This document shows, piece by piece, positions 16,020 through 28,232 of a DNA stretch of 64,000 bases (the stretch's first letter is position 1; each line of letters opens with the position of its first letter). Source of the DNA: Myxococcales bacterium (lineage in GTDB: Bacteria; Myxococcota_A; Bradymonadia; UBA7976; UBA1532); contig PCCS01000001.1 of assembly GCA_002731825.1 (NCBI GenBank), positions 69,480-133,479 on the forward strand, in the 5' to 3' direction. Under the pieces are notes generated by a model. The model saw nothing but the letters and a program-made list of their open reading frames with translations, was not told the DNA's origin and made no database searches. The position numbers and the translations under genes were made by a program.

Positions 16020-16760
16020 CTAGAACGCATTCAGTGCATCGATCAAAGCGCTCAAGACGTGCGCATGGGATTCAGAGTTTTCGAGTAGATCTTGGCGTAT
16101 CTCGAATTCGATATACGGGATAGTGTTGCTTCGCCCGTGGTGGTTAGCCGAATACATGAGCTCGCCTGTCAAGCCAGAGTAGGGGGCATTGAGTGCGCTC
16201 CGAATGCCATTCTTCTCCAAAATTGAGGCCAGTTCTTTTGCCTTGTCCTCATCTCGATCGAATAAAATGCCAACGTCCATCGGTCGTTTGGCGCCATTCC
16301 AAATCGGGGTGAAACTGTGAATAGAGATAAGCTTCAGTTCCGGGTTTTTGTTTTTTTCGCGGGCGACGGCCTGGCTGACTCCGGAATGAAACGAGTCGTA
16401 GAGTGACATGCGCCAGTCTCGGTCCTCGGCGCTGATGTTTTCGTTAAACGAGACGGGTATAGACTCGCAATGCGACACGATCAGCGTGCTCGACTCCGGA
16501 TGACGGTTGACGTCTATGATGAGCCGACTTTCTGTCCCAAGCACGCCAACACTTTTGAAGGCATCGCAGAGGGACTGAGTCAATTTTTCAGCCCCAAGGT
16601 CATAGCCCCAATGCATTTTCAATAAGCGCTGATCCGAGGCCGTTGGCGTATGCCTTGAGACAGCATTAGATGCGTGTTCGCAAGTCAGAATGAAGCGCCC
16701 TTTTGAATCAGGGCTCTCTCCAATAACCCGATAACCGATGGAATTTAGGGACTCATTCAT
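16020..16760 (-). CDS. N-formylglutamate amidohydrolase family protein
   Basis: 'FILTCEHASNAVS', 'HWGYDLGAEKLTQSL', 'RLIIDVNRHPES', 'ISIHSFTPIWNGAKRPMDVGILFD'; 4-bp overlap with the upstream carboxylase. Confidence 0.88.
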   Translation of the reverse strand: MNESLNSIGYRVIGESPDSKGRFILTCEHASNAVSRHTPTASDQRLLKMHWGYDLGAEKLTQSLCDAFKSVGVLGTESRLIIDVNRHPESSTLIVSHCESIPVSFNENISAEDRDWRMSLYDSFHSGVSQAVAREKNKNPELKLISIHSFTPIWNGAKRPMDVGILFDRDEDKAKELASILEKNGIRSALNAPYSGLTGELMYSANHHGRSNTIPYIEFEIRQDLLENSESHAHVLSALIDALNAF

Positions 16761-19700
16761 ACAGCACTTGGCGGATGCGTCACAGGCTGTGCGATCCCCA
16801 TCTCATTGGCATCATCTGCTAAGACCTTGATGATGTACTGTCTCAGCTGAGACGGTTTTATAATGTCATCGATCGACCCGACCTCTTTAGCCCTCTGAAC
16901 CGAGTGAATGGAGTCAAACCGGGCCGCCAATTCACTGGTGGCTTGATTCTTGGCATCATCATCGCCCCCCAATTCGAGCGCCCGTTTGCGTACGTCACCG
17001 GCGAACACCACCGCAGCGGCTGGTGCGCCTCCAATCACCGAGGCATAGCTGCCTTCCAACGCCACTGATTTTAGCTTCGCATTCAGCGCCTTTGAAAAAA
17101 CAACATAGGCACCCCCATGATATCTGGACAGAATGACAAACATGACAGGTCCGTCAAAATTCGTGATCGCCCGTCCAATTTCAGCGCCGTATTCCAATTG
17201 CCAGTGTCTCAGAGACTCAGGCGAGCCGTCGAAACCGGACAAGTTGGCGAGTACGACCAGTGGTCTAAATCCACTTGCCGCGTTGATGGCTCGCGCAATC
17301 TTTCGCGATGCCTGAGGGTACAGTGTCCCACCGGCCAATGTGTCTGGTCCACCCGCAACACGTTGCCCCAATCTCTCGAAGGGCTGGTTTTCGACGCCCA
17401 AAACCATTGCGCTGTACCCACCGATTCGGGCTTCCCAAACCACACAGGTTTCTGCGCCATGCATGGCGGACCAGCGTTCGACCGGAGACGTGTCTTGATC
17501 TGTCAATGCGGCCATGACGGGGCGAATTGCAAAGGGACGTTTTCGGCCGGGGTTATGCTCCTTCGAAAAGATTTCTCCGATGTATTCGAATCCATGACCC
17601 AGATCACTCGGATATTTGGTTTGAGAGAAATCACGCTCATCGGGGTCTGCTGTTTTGATTCGCGGCGGGCGATTTTGACCCGGCGGGACATAGGTTTGTT
17701 GGTAATATCGATAGAGCAAGTCGTAGGCACCGCCCAAATCAGCTGCATGTGCTTGGGCCTGTCCATTGGGACCCATAATCGCCGTATAACCACCCAGAGC
17801 TAGATCATCTTCGGCGGAGACACATCCTGAGAAATCCAATGCACGCTTGCCCGTGAGAACCATCGTGCCTTGGTCGGTCATGATCAATAGGCCTCGGTTG
17901 TGCATCATCATTGTGGCTTCCGCATTCCAGTAGGCTTGCGCGCCGACACAAATACCGGGCACCAAGATGTTGATTTCACCCCCTTTTTGAGTGAAGTGTA
18001 TGATCTTGGCTAAGACTTGAGCCGTCCAGTCCAGATTTTCCGTTCCGCTATCCCAATCGATGCGGGCGCCCGCACTGACAGCCACCCATTCAATAGGCAC
18101 GTTCAACCGCTCGGCTAGCTCGATTGCGGATACGATGCGACGGCATTCAGGCTCCGCTAATGCACCCATCCGGCGGGTCGGGTCAGAGAGTAATAAAACT
18201 CTCGTCAGGGATGTATTCAATGCATGTGACCGGCTCCGAATCACCCCGAAGACGACGCCGCTTTCATTCCCCCCCCTCGGCCGATCAGCGACCCGCCGTA
18301 ATCGTCCACCCTCATCTAGGTCATACTCCTCAAATTTACCGCTTGGAAAGTCGGGGCTTGATTCAAGTAGGTCCACCACTTCGTAAGGGTGAGTCAGCCC
18401 TCGCCTCCGAGCCGCAACGATTCGGCTCTCATACTCCGTTAATGGCATCAGTGGTCTATGGGATGCAGGGTTGATTCTAAAGTCGATATGCTCACCACCG
18501 GGTCTTCGATTGATCGATAGGTCCATCAGTGGTGTGATTCCATTTTCATGAGCATCATCCTTAAATCGAGCCCGCACCACCACCTTCTCGAGTCCGATGG
18601 CCAAGGCGGCCGGAATCAGCCGTTCGATGTAATTCCGCATGACATCAAGGGCCAAGGGCACGATGGGGACCAGGCTTAAGGTGATTCGATTCCATTGATT
18701 TCTGCGCCTCGGATCATGGAGATCACGAGCGGCTTCAATCGACCGGACAGCCGCGTGGAAGACGCGCTCGACATGGGGCAGATGAAGGGGCGTTCCAGGG
18801 GCTCTTTCAAGCGACCTGACTTCACCGTACGCAAGAAATCGAATGTCCCTTGAATTCTCCCAAGCCTTTGCCAAGAAAAGGACTACATCTTCATCACTTG
18901 GCATGCGCTGGAAGTCGAAACGAGATAAACGATCTAAATCCAATCGACGAGCGGTACTCGGCGTGACGTCACGTCTATCGGTCCGCTCGCTGCCATCGGC
19001 ATAGAAGCGTCTTACGGCTGTTCGATTGCCACAGACGGCAACCAAACAGAGTTCATGCCAGCTGGATAAGCCATTGGTACCCCGTTCGATGTCTTTGACC
19101 AGACCGTCAAGAATGAGGTGCGGATCGTCATCGGCATCCGGTGCCAATACAACATCGAGTCGATCCATGGACGGCTCTGCTCGGGCGGCATCGAGCAAGG
19201 CCTTGGTCTCAGTCGGCTGTGCTGTGACACAGACCACAACTTTCTCTCCGTTAATGATTCGGAATGCGGGTCGATCACCCAGTTCAAAACGCAGGACTTG
19301 AGTCGACTCATCCTGCCATTCAAGTCGCCGGGCAACAGCTTCCGCAGCGATGGCACATCCCTTAGCCGCCTCGGGAGCGAACCCCGGCACCAGAGATTCG
19401 GGTGCTTGCAAGACTTCATTCCAATCCGCTTCACCGTCGCGCAGCCAGCTCAGCAATGCCCGTGCTCGGTGTTCTGCCCTGGCTAAAAGTCGAATATGAG
19501 CAAGGCGTTCGAATAGAACGTATCGAGCGCGATCCGCCGCTTCGATGACTGGCCCGAAGCGCGATGGATCTAAGTCCGTCAATCGATCGAGCAGTTGAAT
19601 GGGGGCTTCTTCCAGTTGTCTAAGGGCCATGACGGCAGCCGGTATGGTCTCAGGTAAAGCTTCACCAGCCCGTTTAAGACGCATGATCGCGTCGTCGCGA

Positions 19701-21958
19701 GCATCCGACGGGTCAAGACTCTCGACGCCGAAGCGGGCAACACTGGCTTCCAGAATCGCTTTCCGCTCATTGGACAGACCACTTTGACCACGTTCTTCGA
19801 GGGTCGCCATCCAAACATCGGGTGACACTGCGTCAGTCGCACCGCTGCCACCATCTTTTTGTCGGGTTGGTCTTCGCTCAAACAGCTCGGCGACATCGGC
19901 AAAAGACTGTAAAATGCCCTCTGCGACGTCAGCTTTCAGCGATTTCATGTCGGTTGCGAGTTCCTGAGACTCGAAGTCCCAGCCGACCACGGCCGATGTC
20001 ACCCGTGGTCCGGCCTGGGCTCGTGTTTCGGCATCCGATTCCCATGGCAATGTCGCCGACTGCCCACTGGTATCCTTTTCCTCACCGTCTTCCGATTCGA
20101 TCATGATGAGCGCTTGGCCACTTTTGACCTGTCCGCCACTCTGGACGACGATTTCACTCACGACACCTGTCAGCGGCGCATCGACTCGGACTTCCATTTT
20201 CATTGATTCTAATATGATGACCACATCACCTGCGGTGACCGTGTCGCCCACATTGACCGGCACCTTGAGGACGAGTGCAGCCGATGGGGCCGCAACCAGA
20301 CCCCCAGATGACTCGGCGACACGATGGGGCACACCATCTACAGCATAGTTTACATCACCGGGCGCTCTCTCGACTCGATATCGCCTGCCCTCCACTGTAA
20401 TCCAGCTCTGGTATGGACCATCGGCGACATAGGAGACATTTAATCGACCGCCAGACCCATGTAATCGAAAGTCCTCTGCGCCAAGGCGATAGACATGGAA
20501 CGTCTCGCCGGCTTCAACGCGATGACGTTCGACACCCTGCGCTCGGTCACCCTTCGCTAAAAAACGATCGATTGCAGCTGCCATCATCGCGATACCTGCA
20601 CCAACGGGTGGGTCGACGCGCAGACGGTCTACAAGTCCAATATCGACATCGCCATTACGGAAATCTTCCCGTGACAGCAAAGCTCTAAGAAAAGACAGGT
20701 TGCTGGTTCCGCCCTCAACCACGATGCGCGTCTGTTCCAGCGCCCTCGACAAACGAGCGATTGCAACCTTACGATTTGGGCCCCAAGCGATGACTTTAGC
20801 GATCAATGGATCAAAGTCGGCGGAGATACTATCGCCTTCGTTAAATCCCGTGTCGACGCGTAGTCCTGGACCAGATGCGAGTACAAATCGAACCAAACGG
20901 CCGGGCGCTGGCATAAAGTTGTTATACGCGTCTTCTGCACACACTCGAGCTTCGACCGCCCACCCGCGTTGATTCATCTGAATGTCATCGAGAGAGCCGC
21001 CCCGTGCGAGTTCAATTTGAGCTCGAACTAAGTCGACGCCAAAGACTTCTTCTGTCACAGGATGCTCAACCTGAAGGCGTGTGTTGACCTCTAGGAAATA
21101 AGGCTCATCTGCATCTAGGTCATACAAAAATTCGACGGTGCCAGCGCTTCGATAATTGACGGCAGAACAAAGGCGTTCAGCCGCCTCCGTGCACGCATTA
21201 TAAACAGCGTCAGGTAATCCGGGGGCAGGGCACTCCTCGATGACCTTTTGGCGGCGTCGTTGCAAAGAACAATCACGAACGCCCAGAATCTTAACGCGCC
21301 CCTCACCATCACCCAGAACTTGCACTTCGATGTGTCGCGCGCGCCGGACAAACTTCTCCATGAAAACGCCAGCACTTTTAAACGAGCGCTCAGCTTCATC
21401 ACGCGCTGAGACAAATTGTTCGACCAGTTCACTGGCCTCATTAACCAGACGAATCCCCCGCCCACCGCCTCCACCGGCGGCCTTCAGCAAAAGTGGGAAA
21501 CCGATCTCAGTCGCGGCGTCAGTCGCCTTCGCTGGATCGGTGACAATGGCCCAGGGGGCCACAGGCACTCGGTGTTCCTCAGCTAATTTTTTTGCTTGTA
21601 TCTTATCGCCCAGGTCATTCATAACCTGCGGACGAGGGGCCAGTAGGGTCATTCCAGCGGCTTCCAGGGCAGCGCAAAATTCACCGTCCTCTGAGGCGAA
21701 GCCCCAGCCGAGCCATGCTGCGTCACACTCTGTCTTTTTCAGGCCGTCTATCACGGCATCGGAGTCTAGATACGCGCTTCGTCCCTCACCGATTCGGACC
21801 GCATGATCCGCGGACCGAACATAGACTGAGTTTAGATCTGCATCTGTGTAGAGCGCCACCGACTCCGGCGCATTCTCTTCTTCTCGTCTCAGCGCATCAA
21901 GCGCGTTGAGAAAACGAATGGCTGGTTCACCCCGATTAACAATTCCAATGCGTTTCAT
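16757..21958 (-). CDS. single-chain biotin-dependent acyl-CoA carboxylase (BC-BCCP-CT in one 1733-aa polypeptide)
   Basis: BC: 'MKRIGIVNRGEPAIRFL', 'FPLLLKAAGGGGGRGIRLV', 'EVNTRLQVEHPVTEEVFGVDLV'; biotinyl site 'ILESMKMEVRVDAP' at about nt 20197-20213; CT: 'GGEINILVPGICVGAQAYWNAEATMMM', 'RPLVVLANLSGFDGS', 'FVILSRYHGGAYVVFSKALN', 'GSYASVIGGAPAAAVVF'. Confidence 0.93.
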   Translation of the reverse strand: MKRIGIVNRGEPAIRFLNALDALRREEENAPESVALYTDADLNSVYVRSADHAVRIGEGRSAYLDSDAVIDGLKKTECDAAWLGWGFASEDGEFCAALEAAGMTLLAPRPQVMNDLGDKIQAKKLAEEHRVPVAPWAIVTDPAKATDAATEIGFPLLLKAAGGGGGRGIRLVNEASELVEQFVSARDEAERSFKSAGVFMEKFVRRARHIEVQVLGDGEGRVKILGVRDCSLQRRRQKVIEECPAPGLPDAVYNACTEAAERLCSAVNYRSAGTVEFLYDLDADEPYFLEVNTRLQVEHPVTEEVFGVDLVRAQIELARGGSLDDIQMNQRGWAVEARVCAEDAYNNFMPAPGRLVRFVLASGPGLRVDTGFNEGDSISADFDPLIAKVIAWGPNRKVAIARLSRALEQTRIVVEGGTSNLSFLRALLSREDFRNGDVDIGLVDRLRVDPPVGAGIAMMAAAIDRFLAKGDRAQGVERHRVEAGETFHVYRLGAEDFRLHGSGGRLNVSYVADGPYQSWITVEGRRYRVERAPGDVNYAVDGVPHRVAESSGGLVAAPSAALVLKVPVNVGDTVTAGDVVIILESMKMEVRVDAPLTGVVSEIVVQSGGQVKSGQALIMIESEDGEEKDTSGQSATLPWESDAETRAQAGPRVTSAVVGWDFESQELATDMKSLKADVAEGILQSFADVAELFERRPTRQKDGGSGATDAVSPDVWMATLEERGQSGLSNERKAILEASVARFGVESLDPSDARDDAIMRLKRAGEALPETIPAAVMALRQLEEAPIQLLDRLTDLDPSRFGPVIEAADRARYVLFERLAHIRLLARAEHRARALLSWLRDGEADWNEVLQAPESLVPGFAPEAAKGCAIAAEAVARRLEWQDESTQVLRFELGDRPAFRIINGEKVVVCVTAQPTETKALLDAARAEPSMDRLDVVLAPDADDDPHLILDGLVKDIERGTNGLSSWHELCLVAVCGNRTAVRRFYADGSERTDRRDVTPSTARRLDLDRLSRFDFQRMPSDEDVVLFLAKAWENSRDIRFLAYGEVRSLERAPGTPLHLPHVERVFHAAVRSIEAARDLHDPRRRNQWNRITLSLVPIVPLALDVMRNYIERLIPAALAIGLEKVVVRARFKDDAHENGITPLMDLSINRRPGGEHIDFRINPASHRPLMPLTEYESRIVAARRRGLTHPYEVVDLLESSPDFPSGKFEEYDLDEGGRLRRVADRPRGGNESGVVFGVIRSRSHALNTSLTRVLLLSDPTRRMGALAEPECRRIVSAIELAERLNVPIEWVAVSAGARIDWDSGTENLDWTAQVLAKIIHFTQKGGEINILVPGICVGAQAYWNAEATMMMHNRGLLIMTDQGTMVLTGKRALDFSGCVSAEDDLALGGYTAIMGPNGQAQAHAADLGGAYDLLYRYYQQTYVPPGQNRPPRIKTADPDERDFSQTKYPSDLGHGFEYIGEIFSKEHNPGRKRPFAIRPVMAALTDQDTSPVERWSAMHGAETCVVWEARIGGYSAMVLGVENQPFERLGQRVAGGPDTLAGGTLYPQASRKIARAINAASGFRPLVVLANLSGFDGSPESLRHWQLEYGAEIGRAITNFDGPVMFVILSRYHGGAYVVFSKALNAKLKSVALEGSYASVIGGAPAAAVVFAGDVRKRALELGGDDDAKNQATSELAARFDSIHSVQRAKEVGSIDDIIKPSQLRQYIIKVLADDANEMGIAQPVTHPPSAV

Positions 21959-22266: not shown

Positions 22267-23664
22267 ATGTTTAAGACCCGCTGGAATCGATGCACCGCTT
22301 GCATTTTTGTATTGGGGTCTTTGGTTGGGTGTGCTGGCGCTGAGATAGACTCTCCCGAGACAGAGCCGCCTATTTCGAGAGATGCAGGCATGAGGCTGAT
22401 CTTAGACGCTCAGTTGCCGGCGTCTGATGCCAACCCCGCATCGCCAAATCTAGACTCAGGCTTGATGGATTCTGACCCCATCGATGTGGCTATTGAGATG
22501 GGTGATCTACAATGCCGTGAGTTGTCAGAGTGCCTCGCCGATTGTAGTGACCCTGATTGTTCGCTCGCCTGTCGTATGGCCGCACCTGATATGTCGACGG
22601 CTCTCTATGATGCTATCTTCGTCTGTGCATCGGCGAACGACTGTGCACGGCCAGGGGGTAATTATGACCAAATGTGTATGACTCTGAATTGTGCGGCGGA
22701 GCAGAGAGCGTGTCTTGGACCGCCCCCTCCGGGGCCACCACCGCCCATGGGTGATTTGACGTGTCAGCAACTTGATGACTGCTTGTCTGAGTGTGTGCCC
22801 GGCGACCTCGACTGCCGTGACACCTGTGTTTCATCATCGAGTCAGCAGGGATACGATCAACTATTGATAGTGCAGATGTGTGTCGAGACCGCCGAGTGTG
22901 AGCCCACCGACTTTGCCTGCATTTTGAGAGCCTGCGAGGGCAGTTTAGCCACATGCTATGGGTCTGTTATCAGACCTCTTGGCGATGCGACTTGTGACGA
23001 TTTGAATCGCTGTTTAGGTGAGTGCTCTGAGGGCGAGACCGATTGTTTCGATGGCTGCTATCGGAGCGCCAGTGAAGCTGGGTATAATCAATTTCGGGCC
23101 GTTGTAGCCTGCGTTGGAGGCACCCAATGTGGCGACGATGACGGTGATTGCCAGAGGATGGCTTGTCCTGCAGAATTTGAGGTTTGTTTTGGTCCAGCCG
23201 CCCCACCCCCGATGGGGATGATGACATGTGATGAATTGAATGCATGTCTTGGTAACTGCGCAGAGGCCGATCAGCTGTGCATCAATAATTGTATCGGTCG
23301 GTCCTCTCAAATGGGGTACGACGCATTCTTAGCGGCCGTTGATTGTATCGCAGAATCAAACTGCCCAGAGGACGATGCCGCCTGCCGGCAAGCGGCGTGT
23401 CAGATGCAAATCGAGGCGTGTCTGGGTCCACCGGCTATGCCCACGGGCAATTCAACATGCGCGCAGCTCAATGAGTGTTTGGCGACCTGTATGGAGGATG
23501 ACCGAGATTGCGTTGACAGCTGCATACGTGCCTCGAGTCCGGTTGGCTTCCGGCTGCTTCAAGACGCGATTCAATGTGTTGAGGATGCGGGCTGTATGCC
23601 CGCTGACCTTGAATGTCAGCAGTCCAATTGCGCGGCCGAAATTCAGGCTTGTTTTAGTCCCTAG
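22267..23664 (+). CDS. cysteine-rich repeat lipoprotein (five 10-Cys repeats)
   Basis: Lipobox 'LGSLVGCAG', Asp-rich linker, five about 70-aa repeats with near-invariant cysteine spacing. Confidence 0.85.
   Translation: MFKTRWNRCTACIFVLGSLVGCAGAEIDSPETEPPISRDAGMRLILDAQLPASDANPASPNLDSGLMDSDPIDVAIEMGDLQCRELSECLADCSDPDCSLACRMAAPDMSTALYDAIFVCASANDCARPGGNYDQMCMTLNCAAEQRACLGPPPPGPPPPMGDLTCQQLDDCLSECVPGDLDCRDTCVSSSSQQGYDQLLIVQMCVETAECEPTDFACILRACEGSLATCYGSVIRPLGDATCDDLNRCLGECSEGETDCFDGCYRSASEAGYNQFRAVVACVGGTQCGDDDGDCQRMACPAEFEVCFGPAAPPPMGMMTCDELNACLGNCAEADQLCINNCIGRSSQMGYDAFLAAVDCIAESNCPEDDAACRQAACQMQIEACLGPPAMPTGNSTCAQLNECLATCMEDDRDCVDSCIRASSPVGFRLLQDAIQCVEDAGCMPADLECQQSNCAAEIQACFSP
22513..23652 (+). 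repeat. five tandem 10-Cys protein repeats (R1 22513-22713, R2 22762-22956, R3 22993-23187, R4 23227-23421, R5 23458-23652)
   Basis: R2-R5 all fit C-x5-C-x3-C-x6-C-x3-C-x17-C-x5-C-x6-C-x4-C-x6-C exactly. Confidence 0.93.
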
Positions 23665-23669
23665 CGGCG

Positions 23670-24440
23670 TTACCAGCGGCCGAGGTAGCGGTCCGCTTTT
23701 GACATCCGTTGCCACGGTGCCCGCACGTCAAAAGGCATGGGAGGCAAGACGCGTGATTGGAGCCGAGGCATCAACTGCGCGCGTTCGGGCAAGATGTGCT
23801 TTGAGCAAATGAGCGTCCGGTTTGATTTGACGACGCCGGGTATGACGACCGCATCGGTTGAATAATCGACCCATAGAGCAAACATGGTGTCTACAAAGCG
23901 GCGTCCCGGCAAAAGATTGACCACAATCAATCCGTTTTCAGCCAAAAGCGTCATGATATTTTTAACGTAGGCTCGGCTACTGCATGCGTCCGGAATCCCG
24001 ATAGCGTCATAACAATCGACGAAGATCAGATCATAGCGGCCTTGAGACGGCGCGCCGACAAATGTTGATGCGCATGAAATCTTTACATCGAGATTGCGTA
24101 GACGGTTTAAACCAAAATACGTGGAGGCCGCTCTATAGACCGTCTCATTTAATTCAACGGCTGTAATCTCGATCTGCGGATACAGGTTGCTTAGGAGTTG
24201 TGGAATCGCGCCAACGCCAAGACCAAGGCAGAGCGCCCGACTCGGGTTTGGCAAAGCCAATGTCGCTGCCAGATGGCTATGGAGATATTCGGAGCGAAAA
24301 TCGAGCCGCCGATACCGATGCTGATAGCCCTGGATCAATTCTTGGTTATCGGCCATGCGCAGGCAGCGGTAGGGGCCGCGGTCGAAGACGACCACGGACT
24401 CTCCGGCACCTTCTATGGTTGTGACATAGCGATCAGACAC
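23670..24440 (-). CDS. spermidine synthase-like SAM-dependent methyltransferase fold protein
   Basis: 'ALCLGLGVGAIPQLLSNLYPQIEITAVELNETVYRAASTYFGL', 'YDLIFVDCYDAIGIP'. Confidence 0.8.
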   Translation of the reverse strand: MSDRYVTTIEGAGESVVVFDRGPYRCLRMADNQELIQGYQHRYRRLDFRSEYLHSHLAATLALPNPSRALCLGLGVGAIPQLLSNLYPQIEITAVELNETVYRAASTYFGLNRLRNLDVKISCASTFVGAPSQGRYDLIFVDCYDAIGIPDACSSRAYVKNIMTLLAENGLIVVNLLPGRRFVDTMFALWVDYSTDAVVIPGVVKSNRTLICSKHILPERAQLMPRLQSRVLPPMPFDVRAPWQRMSKADRYLGRW

Positions 24441-24555
24441 GAGACATCCGCTAACTGGTTCCTGGGTTATGCCCGTATAGCACTATCGTGTGTCCGATTG
24501 TATCCATCGTGCTGAGCTTGCATAGACACCGTGTCTGACTGTATCGTGCGCTCTG

Positions 24556-25611
24556 TTGTTGATGACTGGTGAGAGTGTATTCATGCGTACCCAAATTCTA
24601 CTGGTTGGCTTTCTTGTTTCGGCTATCGGTTGTCAGTCCGATAGCGACAACGGGGATGTCATTATACCCAGTGTCGAGCGAGACATGATGAGAATAGATG
24701 AGCCTCGAATTGCGGACGTCTCGATTCCCGATATGGCCTCCGTCAGTGATGGGGCGACCAGCGATTCATCTGGCATCGATCCCATGGGTGATGGGTCCGT
24801 CGTCGATGCAGGTCTGCCCGATACATCGATGGCCGTTGATGCCGGGTTTGTGGATGCAGATGCACCGGGCATGGGTAACGCGCCCGTGCCGCCTAATTGT
24901 GTGGATAACGGTCAAAATTGTGGTGAGGTGTGTCGTTGGGTATCCGAGTGCGCGTTTGCGGGAGGCTGTGTCACGGAAGACGCCAACCGTCCGGCCCTGA
25001 TCACGTCTTGTCTGAGAACATGTAATGAAACGCCACCGTACGCCGACATCATGTGCGGTTTTAACAGCTGTGTACCGACCCTCGACCTTGCCAATAATGA
25101 TGGCAGCTTCGCGGCACTCTGCCGCGGGGAGCTACCGCCTGAAATGAACGACCAAGGTGTGGCAGAATGCATCGCGCTCAATCAGTGTCTCGGCGATTGC
25201 ATGGGCGACCAAGTGTGTTTGGATGCCTGTTCTGCTAATGCCACACCGGAGGCCAATGAACGCTTTCAGGCCATCATCACCTGCCTTCAGCAAAATCAAT
25301 GTTTCACACCGGCAGGAGAGCTTGACCAAGCGTGTTTAGACCAAAACTGCGAAGTTGAGTCTGAGCGGTGTCTTGGACCGCAAGTCCGGCCCATTGGGCA
25401 GGGGACATGTAATGGACTTCTCACATGTTTAAATGAGTGTGTAGACGGTGATAGAGCGTGCATTAATGTCTGTGTTCAATTGAGTAGCCCTGCGGCATTC
25501 GCCCTGTACCGGGCTGCTGTCGATTGTGTCCAAGACAATTGTATAGGGAACGATCCGCAATGCCAGCAGCAAAATTGCGGAGCGGAAATCAACGCATGCG
25601 TGGCCAATTAG
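24556..25611 (+). CDS. cysteine-rich repeat lipoprotein, paralogue of 22267-23664
   Basis: Lipobox 'FLVSAIGCQSDSD', Asp-rich linker, one divergent Cys-rich segment plus two canonical 10-Cys repeats. Confidence 0.85.
   Translation: MLMTGESVFMRTQILLVGFLVSAIGCQSDSDNGDVIIPSVERDMMRIDEPRIADVSIPDMASVSDGATSDSSGIDPMGDGSVVDAGLPDTSMAVDAGFVDADAPGMGNAPVPPNCVDNGQNCGEVCRWVSECAFAGGCVTEDANRPALITSCLRTCNETPPYADIMCGFNSCVPTLDLANNDGSFAALCRGELPPEMNDQGVAECIALNQCLGDCMGDQVCLDACSANATPEANERFQAIITCLQQNQCFTPAGELDQACLDQNCEVESERCLGPQVRPIGQGTCNGLLTCLNECVDGDRACINVCVQLSSPAAFALYRAAVDCVQDNCIGNDPQCQQQNCGAEINACVAN
25168..25599 (+). repeat. two 10-Cys repeats (25168-25371 and 25408-25599)
   Basis: Same C-x5-C-x3-C...x17...x4-C-x6-C framework as 22513-23652. 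Confidence 0.88.
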
Positions 25612-25748: not shown

Positions 25749-28232
25749 CTATAAGGTTTCCAAAAACTCGATGAGGGGTGCACGCTCTGCCTCTGAGAGG
25801 TCGCGATATCGATCGACGGCCCCTTGAGCTTCGCCCGCATGGTCTATGATGGCTTGATGGATTGTTGTTGCTGACCCGTCATGCATATACGGTGCAGTAT
25901 CAGATAGACCCCAGAGGGGCGGTGTTCTGTATTCACCCGCCATCGCTTCACCGTCGGGCACAGCCTGTCTCGAATCACCCAGTACGTCATGGAGTAAGAG
26001 GTCGGTGTATGCTGGTACAGAGCCCTCCATGCCGACTAAAGTGGGGATATGGCATTGACCACAGCCGATGAATTCAAAGAGGCGCCGCCCACTCGGGACG
26101 TCTTTCTTTGGCTTATGGGGTGCCAATTGACCGATGTAGAAAACCAGGTTGTCCAGCGTCACGGCCCCTATCTCTGGGTCTGGAACAGAATCGGTGTCTG
26201 TAGTGCTTCCGAAAGTATATTCCGGGGTGATGTCACGCCCATCGTCGTCCAGTAAGACTAAGCTTGGTACAGTCAATCCAAGCTCGACACTGACCGCGTC
26301 TCGAACGAATTCGATTAGGGATGGTATTTGCGCTTTCCAGCCGAACCGCCCAAGACGCCCATCTACGAAGATGTGTCCGCGGCCACTGATCCCATCTCCG
26401 TCGGTATCCATTGGGTCGGCATTGGCGAGAATGGCTTCGGGTGAAACACGTTCAAGTATGCCGGCCCCGAGAACTGTCGGGGTCTGGCGAGACTCCGTAA
26501 ACATCTCCGGCGCGGCTTCTGGACGGCTATGACCGGGCGTCGCAAGTTTAGCGAGCACGGTCCCTCCAGCCGGGGCGATGAAGCGTCCGTTTTCATCATA
26601 TGTACCAAATCGGGTTCCATTGACACCCAAGGGGCCCGCACCGCCAACCACCGGTTCAAAGTGACACCCGCGACAGCTGTCACCGCTGAAGTAAGGGCCA
26701 AGACCCTCGCTTAAGTAAACGTCCCGATCGAAGAGACTGCGGCCGGCTAAAAATTGGCCTTTTTCGGCATCTGCTAAGGGGTAGAGTGGGCCGCCTAGCT
26801 CGCCGACATCAGCGATCGGCGTATTGGGTGGAATCAGTCCGTCGGTTTTTTGTGATGCGCCACCCAGACTCTCAAGGAAGGCGATCACCGACTGCTGTCT
26901 CAACGGGGTCAAAGCCAGGTATTGGTCTCGACTGCGTTCGGCTTCACCACCGTGCAGCGAAATGGCTTCGTCCAATGTATCGGCTCGACCATCATGTAGA
27001 TAGGGTCCGACGGATGTAATGCCCCAGAGTGGCGCAGTTCGAAATTCTGAACCCGTGGCTATCCCCATGGAAATTCCATCGGCGAGCGCTGGACCCATAT
27101 CGTGAAGTAAAAGATCCGAGTAGGGGAAGATCATACCGCGCGGACCGGCTAAGCCAGACACATGGCAGTCTGCACAACCGATGTTTTCGAATTCTTTGAG
27201 GCCAGCTCGTGTGAGTTCAGTTGGTTCATCTGGTGGGGGGACAGCTAAGAGCATGGCCCAACTCACGAGGGCAAAGAGGGTATCTTCGTCCATTTCGGGG
27301 TCTGGGATATCATCGTCATCGGTCAACGGTTCTGAGGGCGCAGCAGCTTGATGGAAGCGTTTGACTTCCAGGGGACTATTGATGGTGGTGACTCGGCTAT
27401 CGGCCTCATCGAGAACGGATGGAACCGGAAGGTTTGCCTTTGCGTCGGCGCTCAATGGGTCCGTCGTAATGCCAATGTGATTGAAGATGGGGCCTCGAAT
27501 AAAGCCTTCCACACTGACGGTCTGTGATTTCGTGCCAAAACGTCCGACGAAGCCGCGGTCATAATTTGGTCGGCCACTAATCCCATCACCGTCCGCATCG
27601 TCGGGGTCGGCATTTTGTAGAATGCTCTCTTCAGGGATTTCGGCCAGTAAACCGATTCCGAAGAACGGGATCGGATTACGAATTGCGGCTGTATTTGCTG
27701 TCGAGTCAGGGGTCGGTCTCTTGGTCTCGATTGGCCACCGATACGAACTGAGTATGCCGCTTCGATCTCCCGATGGAATAAAACTCCCATCAGATGTCGT
27801 CTGACCTTGAATGATAAAGTCTCGATAGTGCCCTGCCGAACCTCCAAAAACTGGTTTCTCATGGCAGGCCCCACAGAAGGTGACGTTAAAAATCGGCCCG
27901 AGTCCCTCGTCAGGCGTAAACCGCTGTTGGACAATCTCCTCGCCGCGCCTGAACACGGCTCGCTGGGTCTCCGTTGCATCTGGCAAAATGGCCCCCTGAG
28001 GCGCATAAATTCCAACGGCCGGCGGTACCCCGACCTCGCTCGACGGGTCACCGCATCCGATGGCCATTAAAATGACCAACCAATAGCTGTTGCACTGAAG
28101 ATGCCTCAAGAATCGACCTTTCCCCGCCAATAGGCCAGCAGCTAATCTAAGCGATTCGCGCTGTCGAAGTCTACATAAGTTTGCCCATTGAAAGAGTCGG
28201 TTTGTTCTCTTGTCCGCCAATGGTCTTTGCAT
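25749..28232 (-). CDS. tandem-duplicated di-haem oxidoreductase (DHOR/thiol-oxidoreductase-like), putative lipoprotein; start codon uncertain
   Basis: Two homologous halves, each with two CxxCH motifs: 'CGACH', 'CADCH' and 'CRGCH', 'CGQCH'; 'TAPLWGITSVGPYLHDGRADTLDEAI' and 'TPPLWGLSDTAPYMHDGSATTIHQAI'; 'LMAIGCGD' lipobox. Confidence 0.88.
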   Translation of the reverse strand: MQRPLADKRTNRLFQWANLCRLRQRESLRLAAGLLAGKGRFLRHLQCNSYWLVILMAIGCGDPSSEVGVPPAVGIYAPQGAILPDATETQRAVFRRGEEIVQQRFTPDEGLGPIFNVTFCGACHEKPVFGGSAGHYRDFIIQGQTTSDGSFIPSGDRSGILSSYRWPIETKRPTPDSTANTAAIRNPIPFFGIGLLAEIPEESILQNADPDDADGDGISGRPNYDRGFVGRFGTKSQTVSVEGFIRGPIFNHIGITTDPLSADAKANLPVPSVLDEADSRVTTINSPLEVKRFHQAAAPSEPLTDDDDIPDPEMDEDTLFALVSWAMLLAVPPPDEPTELTRAGLKEFENIGCADCHVSGLAGPRGMIFPYSDLLLHDMGPALADGISMGIATGSEFRTAPLWGITSVGPYLHDGRADTLDEAISLHGGEAERSRDQYLALTPLRQQSVIAFLESLGGASQKTDGLIPPNTPIADVGELGGPLYPLADAEKGQFLAGRSLFDRDVYLSEGLGPYFSGDSCRGCHFEPVVGGAGPLGVNGTRFGTYDENGRFIAPAGGTVLAKLATPGHSRPEAAPEMFTESRQTPTVLGAGILERVSPEAILANADPMDTDGDGISGRGHIFVDGRLGRFGWKAQIPSLIEFVRDAVSVELGLTVPSLVLLDDDGRDITPEYTFGSTTDTDSVPDPEIGAVTLDNLVFYIGQLAPHKPKKDVPSGRRLFEFIGCGQCHIPTLVGMEGSVPAYTDLLLHDVLGDSRQAVPDGEAMAGEYRTPPLWGLSDTAPYMHDGSATTIHQAIIDHAGEAQGAVDRYRDLSEAERAPLIEFLETL

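Follow-up and report, generated by a model that had tools for sequence, protein, structure and literature searches.

This locus raises the question of what the regularly spaced ten-cysteine repeats of two neighboring lipoproteins (P0001 and P0002) are, and to which known domain they may be related. In the stretch of DNA analyzed (64,000 nucleotides, referred to as the window), there are seven such repeats, R1–R7 (Table 1). They are probably tandem copies of an all-helical, putatively disulfide-locked module on presumed outer-surface lipoproteins, a permuted counterpart of the cysteine-rich domain of plant violaxanthin de-epoxidase (VDE) with a likely non-catalytic role in binding or targeting.

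All seven repeats fit the pattern C-x5-C-x3-C-x(4-6)-C-x3-C-x17-C-x(4-5)-C-x(6/10)-C-x4-C-x6-C, and the first cysteine of R1 (22513) and the end of the last cysteine of R7 (25599) delimit the same span, across two lipoproteins, as given in a preliminary description of this DNA; the identical spacing it reported for R2–R5 was borne out by comparison of the spacings. The pattern was matched in 0 of 5000 shuffles of each cysteine-rich part (5 and 2 matches observed), and since not one of 5000 shuffles reproduced even a single repeat, the regular spacing is not due to chance. Using a repeat profile built from 17 sequences, we obtained E-values of 1e-17 to 1e-22 for R1–R7, which are themselves seven of the training sequences (the profile includes ten others). 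As also described before, both proteins are lipoproteins with an acidic tether: each has a type II signal peptide with a lipobox cysteine as read by eye (LVGC, Cys22, and AIGC, Cys17) and a lysine-free tether (in P0001, 60 aa including 9 D and 4 E; in P0002, 87 aa including 16 D and 2 E), and their content is tether and cysteine modules only. The other, N-terminal cysteine module of P0002 has no Pfam match. Within the order, relatives of it are found in 8 out of 16 genomes, with two further sites in the same genome, and one protein (L047) carries two copies.

Table 1. Features of the two-lipoprotein locus and its surroundings (positions in the window).
Feature	Position	Strand	Basis
1733-aa single chain: biotin carboxylase, biotin carrier and carboxyltransferase-like region	16757-21958	-	
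P0001, lipoprotein, 465 aa, five ten-cysteine repeats	22267-23664	+	ORF; orthologues with all five repeats
Lipobox LVGC of P0001 (Cys22)	22321-22332	+	by sequence; G21-C22 invariant in alignment A3
R1, long C7-C8 loop (x10)	22513-22713	+	spacing and profile
R2	22762-22956	+	spacing and profile
R3	22993-23187	+	spacing and profile
R4, modelled singly and paired with R5	23227-23421	+	spacing, profile, AF2
R5	23458-23652	+	spacing, profile, AF2 pair model
Unrelated gene between P0001 and P0002, polyamine-transferase-like	23670-24440	-	
P0002, lipoprotein, 342 aa, another N-terminal cysteine module, then two ten-cysteine repeats	24583-25611	+	ORF; orthologue adjoins P0001 orthologue in L122
Lipobox AIGC of P0002 (Cys17)	24622-24633	+	by sequence
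Second, differing ten-cysteine module of P0002, C-x6-C-x3-C-x5-C-x5-C-x13-C-x3-C-x10-C-x4-C-x16-C	24898-25125	+	
R6, long C7-C8 loop (x10)	25168-25371	+	spacing and profile
Natural VDE-order stretch: R6 C8-C10, linker, R7 C1-C7	25333-25542	+	VDE-order profile, G000:C1:94812-95021, E 2e-9
R7	25408-25599	+	spacing and profile
827-aa MauG/di-heme-peroxidase-like protein, two similar halves	25749-28232	-	

The repeat is a real module with a wide distribution in Myxococcota. According to the profile search, which had been suggested together with the description, it forms a true family with 20 matches in its own genome, which has five such proteins (P0001 and P0002 among them), and matches in 95 of the 284 sampled genomes of Myxococcota; a contig scan with P0001 as the single query and a search of plasmids gave no match. 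With a threshold as loose as E 10, P0001 and P0002 still match nothing in Pfam or NCBIfam, and PDB sequence searches, run with the protein as well as the repeat profile, returned nothing significant (the best matches, psbM at E 0.59 and CSF-1 at E 1.2, are chance). A common surface module of Myxococcota that was unannotated until now can be named. It is found alone, in tandem (arrays of 2–10 repeats with short Pro-rich linkers), or beside trypsin, esterase, SRCR, somatomedin-B and DUF4215 domains; 80 repeat proteins include 12 with trypsin, 6 with somatomedin B, 5 with MopE motifs and several with esterase-type domains. The long C7–C8 loop is found in 40 of 62 first repeats of arrays versus 31 of 122 later ones. 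In the same genome, two repeat proteins (L008 and L009) have Gly-rich tethers, and an 1101-aa repeat protein contains an SRCR domain and nine myxo_disulf_rpt repeats, along with a PPC match too weak to reach the Pfam cut-off. We note that five trypsin-like proteases (L034, L066, L070, L077 and L087) carry 2–3 repeats in the window order, MopE-type motifs, and hydrophobic C-terminal anchors resembling MYXO-CTERM tails.

The two-lipoprotein locus is also present in another genome from the same genus (L122). In the same-genus record CALELH010000010.1 the order is carboxylase (at the contig end), P0001, the minus-strand polyamine-transferase-like gene, P0002 and the MauG-like di-heme gene; in each of the genus's two genomes, this last gene adjoins the locus. 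P0001 orthologues with five repeats are found in three other genomes (L122–L124, alignment A3), and in the two from other genera (L123 and L124) the orthologue lies among other neighbors, which indicates no operon partner. An operon of P0001 and P0002 was considered and ruled out, because the intervening gene is on the opposite strand and the neighbors differ in L123 and L124. The combination of biotin carboxylase, carrier and carboxyltransferase-like region in one chain, as in the neighboring carboxylase, is more familiar from the acetyl-CoA carboxylase of eukaryotes.

Related bacterial repeats have the cysteine order C8-C9-C10-C1...C7 (the VDE order). One protein with such repeats (L073) scores above the curated cut-off of the Pfam VDE family, PF07137, with three repeats that fall on the first part of the profile, its cysteine-rich domain (best 3–59). 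When window repeats were rotated (C8–C10 moved before C1), they aligned with 22 VDE-order bacterial repeats over 63 columns (hhalign 98.7%, E 2.1e-16); with every cysteine masked, this comparison scored 24.7, against 200 controls (columns permuted between cysteines) that averaged 6.7 and reached at most 13.7, and a larger repeat set gave 29.2 against 8.6. The VDE-order profile, which matched 110 of the 284 genomes, also found a stretch of the unmodified window that spans the R6–R7 linker (Table 1). Complete single units occur in both orders, with 8 arrays running from C1 to C10 and 26 from C8 to C7 (strict arrays only, as neighboring CGxGxC modules blur the start and end labels). Judged by the rotated match with masked cysteines, the linker match and the single units in both orders, window-order and VDE-order bacterial repeats are circular permutants of one domain. 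The repeat had been presented as an unrecognized domain, and this stands insofar as no existing Pfam or NCBIfam model names it; it is not unrelated to known families, being a circular permutant of a bacterial repeat that matches VDE. VDE-order repeats (L073 and L098–L121) often alternate with ~30-aa CGNGxCxxGE...CPxDC modules, for which the scans gave no Pfam family.

For the seven rotated window repeats, VDE is the sole Pfam family matched (best E 0.008), and unrotated and wrongly rotated repeats gave no Pfam match. The rotated repeats reach at most 16.1 bits against PF07137, below its cut-off of 25.7, which VDE-order relatives pass and P0001 and P0002 do not. Shuffles of the rotated repeats that preserve the cysteines gave weaker VDE matches in 4 out of 10 controls (up to 11.9 bits), so part of this signal comes from spacing alone. 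PF07137 itself was matched in 26 of the 284 genomes (17 above the cut-off), while 14 control genomes gave no match. Against spinach VDE (an approximate query assembled from the fragments in Table 1 of PMC4412432 and short additional pieces), the VDE-order bacterial profile, which contains no plant sequence, scored 34.2 bits, with 0 of 2000 cysteine-preserving shuffles as good, whereas the window-repeat profile gave a weak 15.6 bits, with 96 of 2000 shuffles as good; given this weak direct score, the link to VDE runs via bacterial intermediates. Two myxobacterial proteins, L097 (G091:C257:338-1315, minus strand, 51.1 bits to PF07137) and L113 (G112:C76, plus strand, 45.2 bits), have a VDE cysteine domain with a VDE-type lipocalin region after it. 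The genes around both look bacterial, and L113 carries a lipobox; contamination from a eukaryote is therefore less likely. In PDB searches, the lipocalin part of L113 matched only VDE (3cqn, E 0.79), and that of L097 gave no VDE match.

These results bear on whether an arrangement of two nested CxnC helical hairpins closed by a further disulfide originated on two occasions, in which case the window repeat would be a myxobacterial invention only. Such convergence would fit the scores reached by shuffles against PF07137, the non-significant score of the window profile on spinach VDE, and the fact that no prokaryotic VDE homologue has been described (PMC2483416), but we regard it as unlikely in view of the 17 genomes whose VDE-order repeats pass the PF07137 cut-off, the VDE-order profile that beats all 2000 shuffles, and the adjoining lipocalin in L097 and L113. 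We infer instead that the window module is probably homologous to the plant VDE cysteine domain. An earlier study of 915 genomes found no microbial VDE homologue and stated that prokaryotes have none, and a 2008 proposal saw the cysteine-rich domain as an innovation of eukaryotes, made in the protozoan host (PMC2483416). That it is instead a bacterial module, diversified in Myxococcota in two permutations and already fused there to a lipocalin (L097 and L113), with part or all of VDE coming from bacteria, is a tentative proposal which we would not yet favor; the large bacterial family with the same module is a candidate source of the domain.

The preliminary description had suggested helical hairpins with up to five disulfides, and had called for structure prediction. 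The AF2 model of R4 (25 repeats) is all-helical, with a pLDDT of 88.1 and helices at 8–16, 23–32, 35–50, 58–64 and 66–73, and the R4–R5 tandem pair was predicted with a pLDDT of 93.1 and a pTM of 0.66, in agreement with that suggestion, as are the paired cysteine losses described here; Foldseek searches of PDB with both models found nothing under E 3. Among 242 window-order and 159 VDE-order repeats, C3 and C4 are lost exactly together in 5 window-order (p 2e-7) and 5 VDE-order repeats (the sets share at least one protein, and co-loss p-values are optimistic because repeats within one protein are related). C7 and C8 are lost together in two real repeats, both in L089; of the three flagged, the one in L045 is an alignment shift. 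L097 lacks C6 and C9 (C8-x11-C10 without C9, and Ala at the C6 position) and keeps the other eight cysteines. Losses in the C8 column only look mostly like shifts of one to three residues and were excluded as evidence for bonds.

Two disulfide maps of VDE can be compared with these losses. By mass spectrometry (MS), the pairs are C14-C21, C33-C50, C37-C46 and C65-C72, with C9-C27 inferred (PMC4412432), and the AlphaFold pairs in a 2026 review are C9-C72, C14-C65, C21-C27, C33-C50 and C37-C46 (PMC13181403). In repeat numbering, the MS map reads 8-1, 9-10, 2-5, 3-4 and 6-7, and the AlphaFold map 7-8, 6-9, 1-10, 2-5 and 3-4. C3-C4 is common to both; the co-losses of C7 with C8 and of C6 with C9 favor the AlphaFold map. 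The losses thus support nested bonds in the repeat (1-10, 2-5, 3-4, 6-9 and 7-8, as a putative exact pairing), with which the published MS pairs C14-C21 and C65-C72 (PMC4412432) disagree. A C9-C10 bond also appears unlikely from the model, as the stretch from C9 to C10 is predicted to be helical (66–73). Paired losses in the bacterial family bear on the conflict between the two VDE maps.

Taken together, P0001 and P0002 would be lipoproteins of the outer surface on which one small disulfide-locked, all-helical module is displayed in tandem copies. In each module, a pair of nested disulfides would staple each of two helical hairpins (C2-C5/C3-C4 in one, C6-C9/C7-C8 in the other), and a C1-C10 disulfide would close the module. 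With chain ends beside a disulfide in either order, the same fold would tolerate opening at C10/C1 or C7/C8. An acidic tether with a lipid anchor would carry the module in tandem copies, and in relatives the module would be joined to secreted hydrolases; we infer that lipid anchor, tether, tandem copies and hydrolase fusions fit a stable, non-catalytic module that may bind or target a surface, polymer, membrane or partner. The cysteine-rich domain of VDE is essential to plant photoprotection in a role that is unexplained, and this N-domain is likely not directly catalytic (PMC13181403); by analogy, it may be a stable binding or targeting module too.

The repeats were earlier seen as a stalk, and as a rigid spacer lifting something off the membrane they would explain the tandem arrays of 2–10, the acidic tether, the short Pro-rich linkers and the lack of any other domain in P0001. 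Single-copy forms in both orders and fusions to trypsin or esterase need no stalk, however, and in P0001 there is no cargo domain besides the repeats that could be lifted; a stalk is possible, but that the repeats are a spacer alone is improbable, and they are better seen as an accessory or binding module. That the cysteines hold a metal such as copper or iron, for which the putative metal-binding MopE-type motifs in 5 of 80 relatives might speak, is very unlikely given that VDE with the same cysteine spacing contains <1 mol% metal and has all its cysteines except C7 in disulfides (PMC4412432), and that the paired losses fit disulfides.

Among known systems, myxo_disulf_rpt (TIGR02232) and DUF4215 (PF13948) are likewise extracellular Cys-rich repeats of the same bacteria and occur together with the window-type repeat in L006 (and, by eye, in L039). 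They are ~38–47 aa long with a CGDGxxDxGExCDDGN consensus and a spacing unlike that of the window repeat, and neither matches P0001 or P0002 at E 10. In CHCH domains and alpha-hairpinins, a pair of nested disulfides staples two CxnC helices together; they have no profile match in P0001 or P0002, and they share the stapled CxnC helices with the window module, which has two such hairpins and a closing disulfide. The VDE-order repeats of Myxococcota (L073 and L098–L121), from the same phylum, are homologous to the window repeat beyond the cysteines and are likewise found in lipoprotein and multidomain contexts, but they open at C7/C8 where window repeats open at C10/C1, and are often single units between CGxGxC-type modules. 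The bacterial family offers an example of circular permutation in nature, and naturally occurring single-domain constructs from which a first structure could be obtained. Unlike VDE, the window repeats are permuted, tandem, lipid-anchored and below the Pfam cut-off, without the Glu-rich domain or the lipocalin domain with its de-epoxidase site. The VDE cysteine domain (PF07137 positions 3–60, cysteines C9...C72) and the window repeat have ten cysteines each with a common spacing of 4-6-5-5-3-n-3-14/17-5/6, which agrees only after rotation, and both VDE and the bacterial module are extracytoplasmic, with predicted nested disulfides, and appended to an enzyme (PMC13181403).
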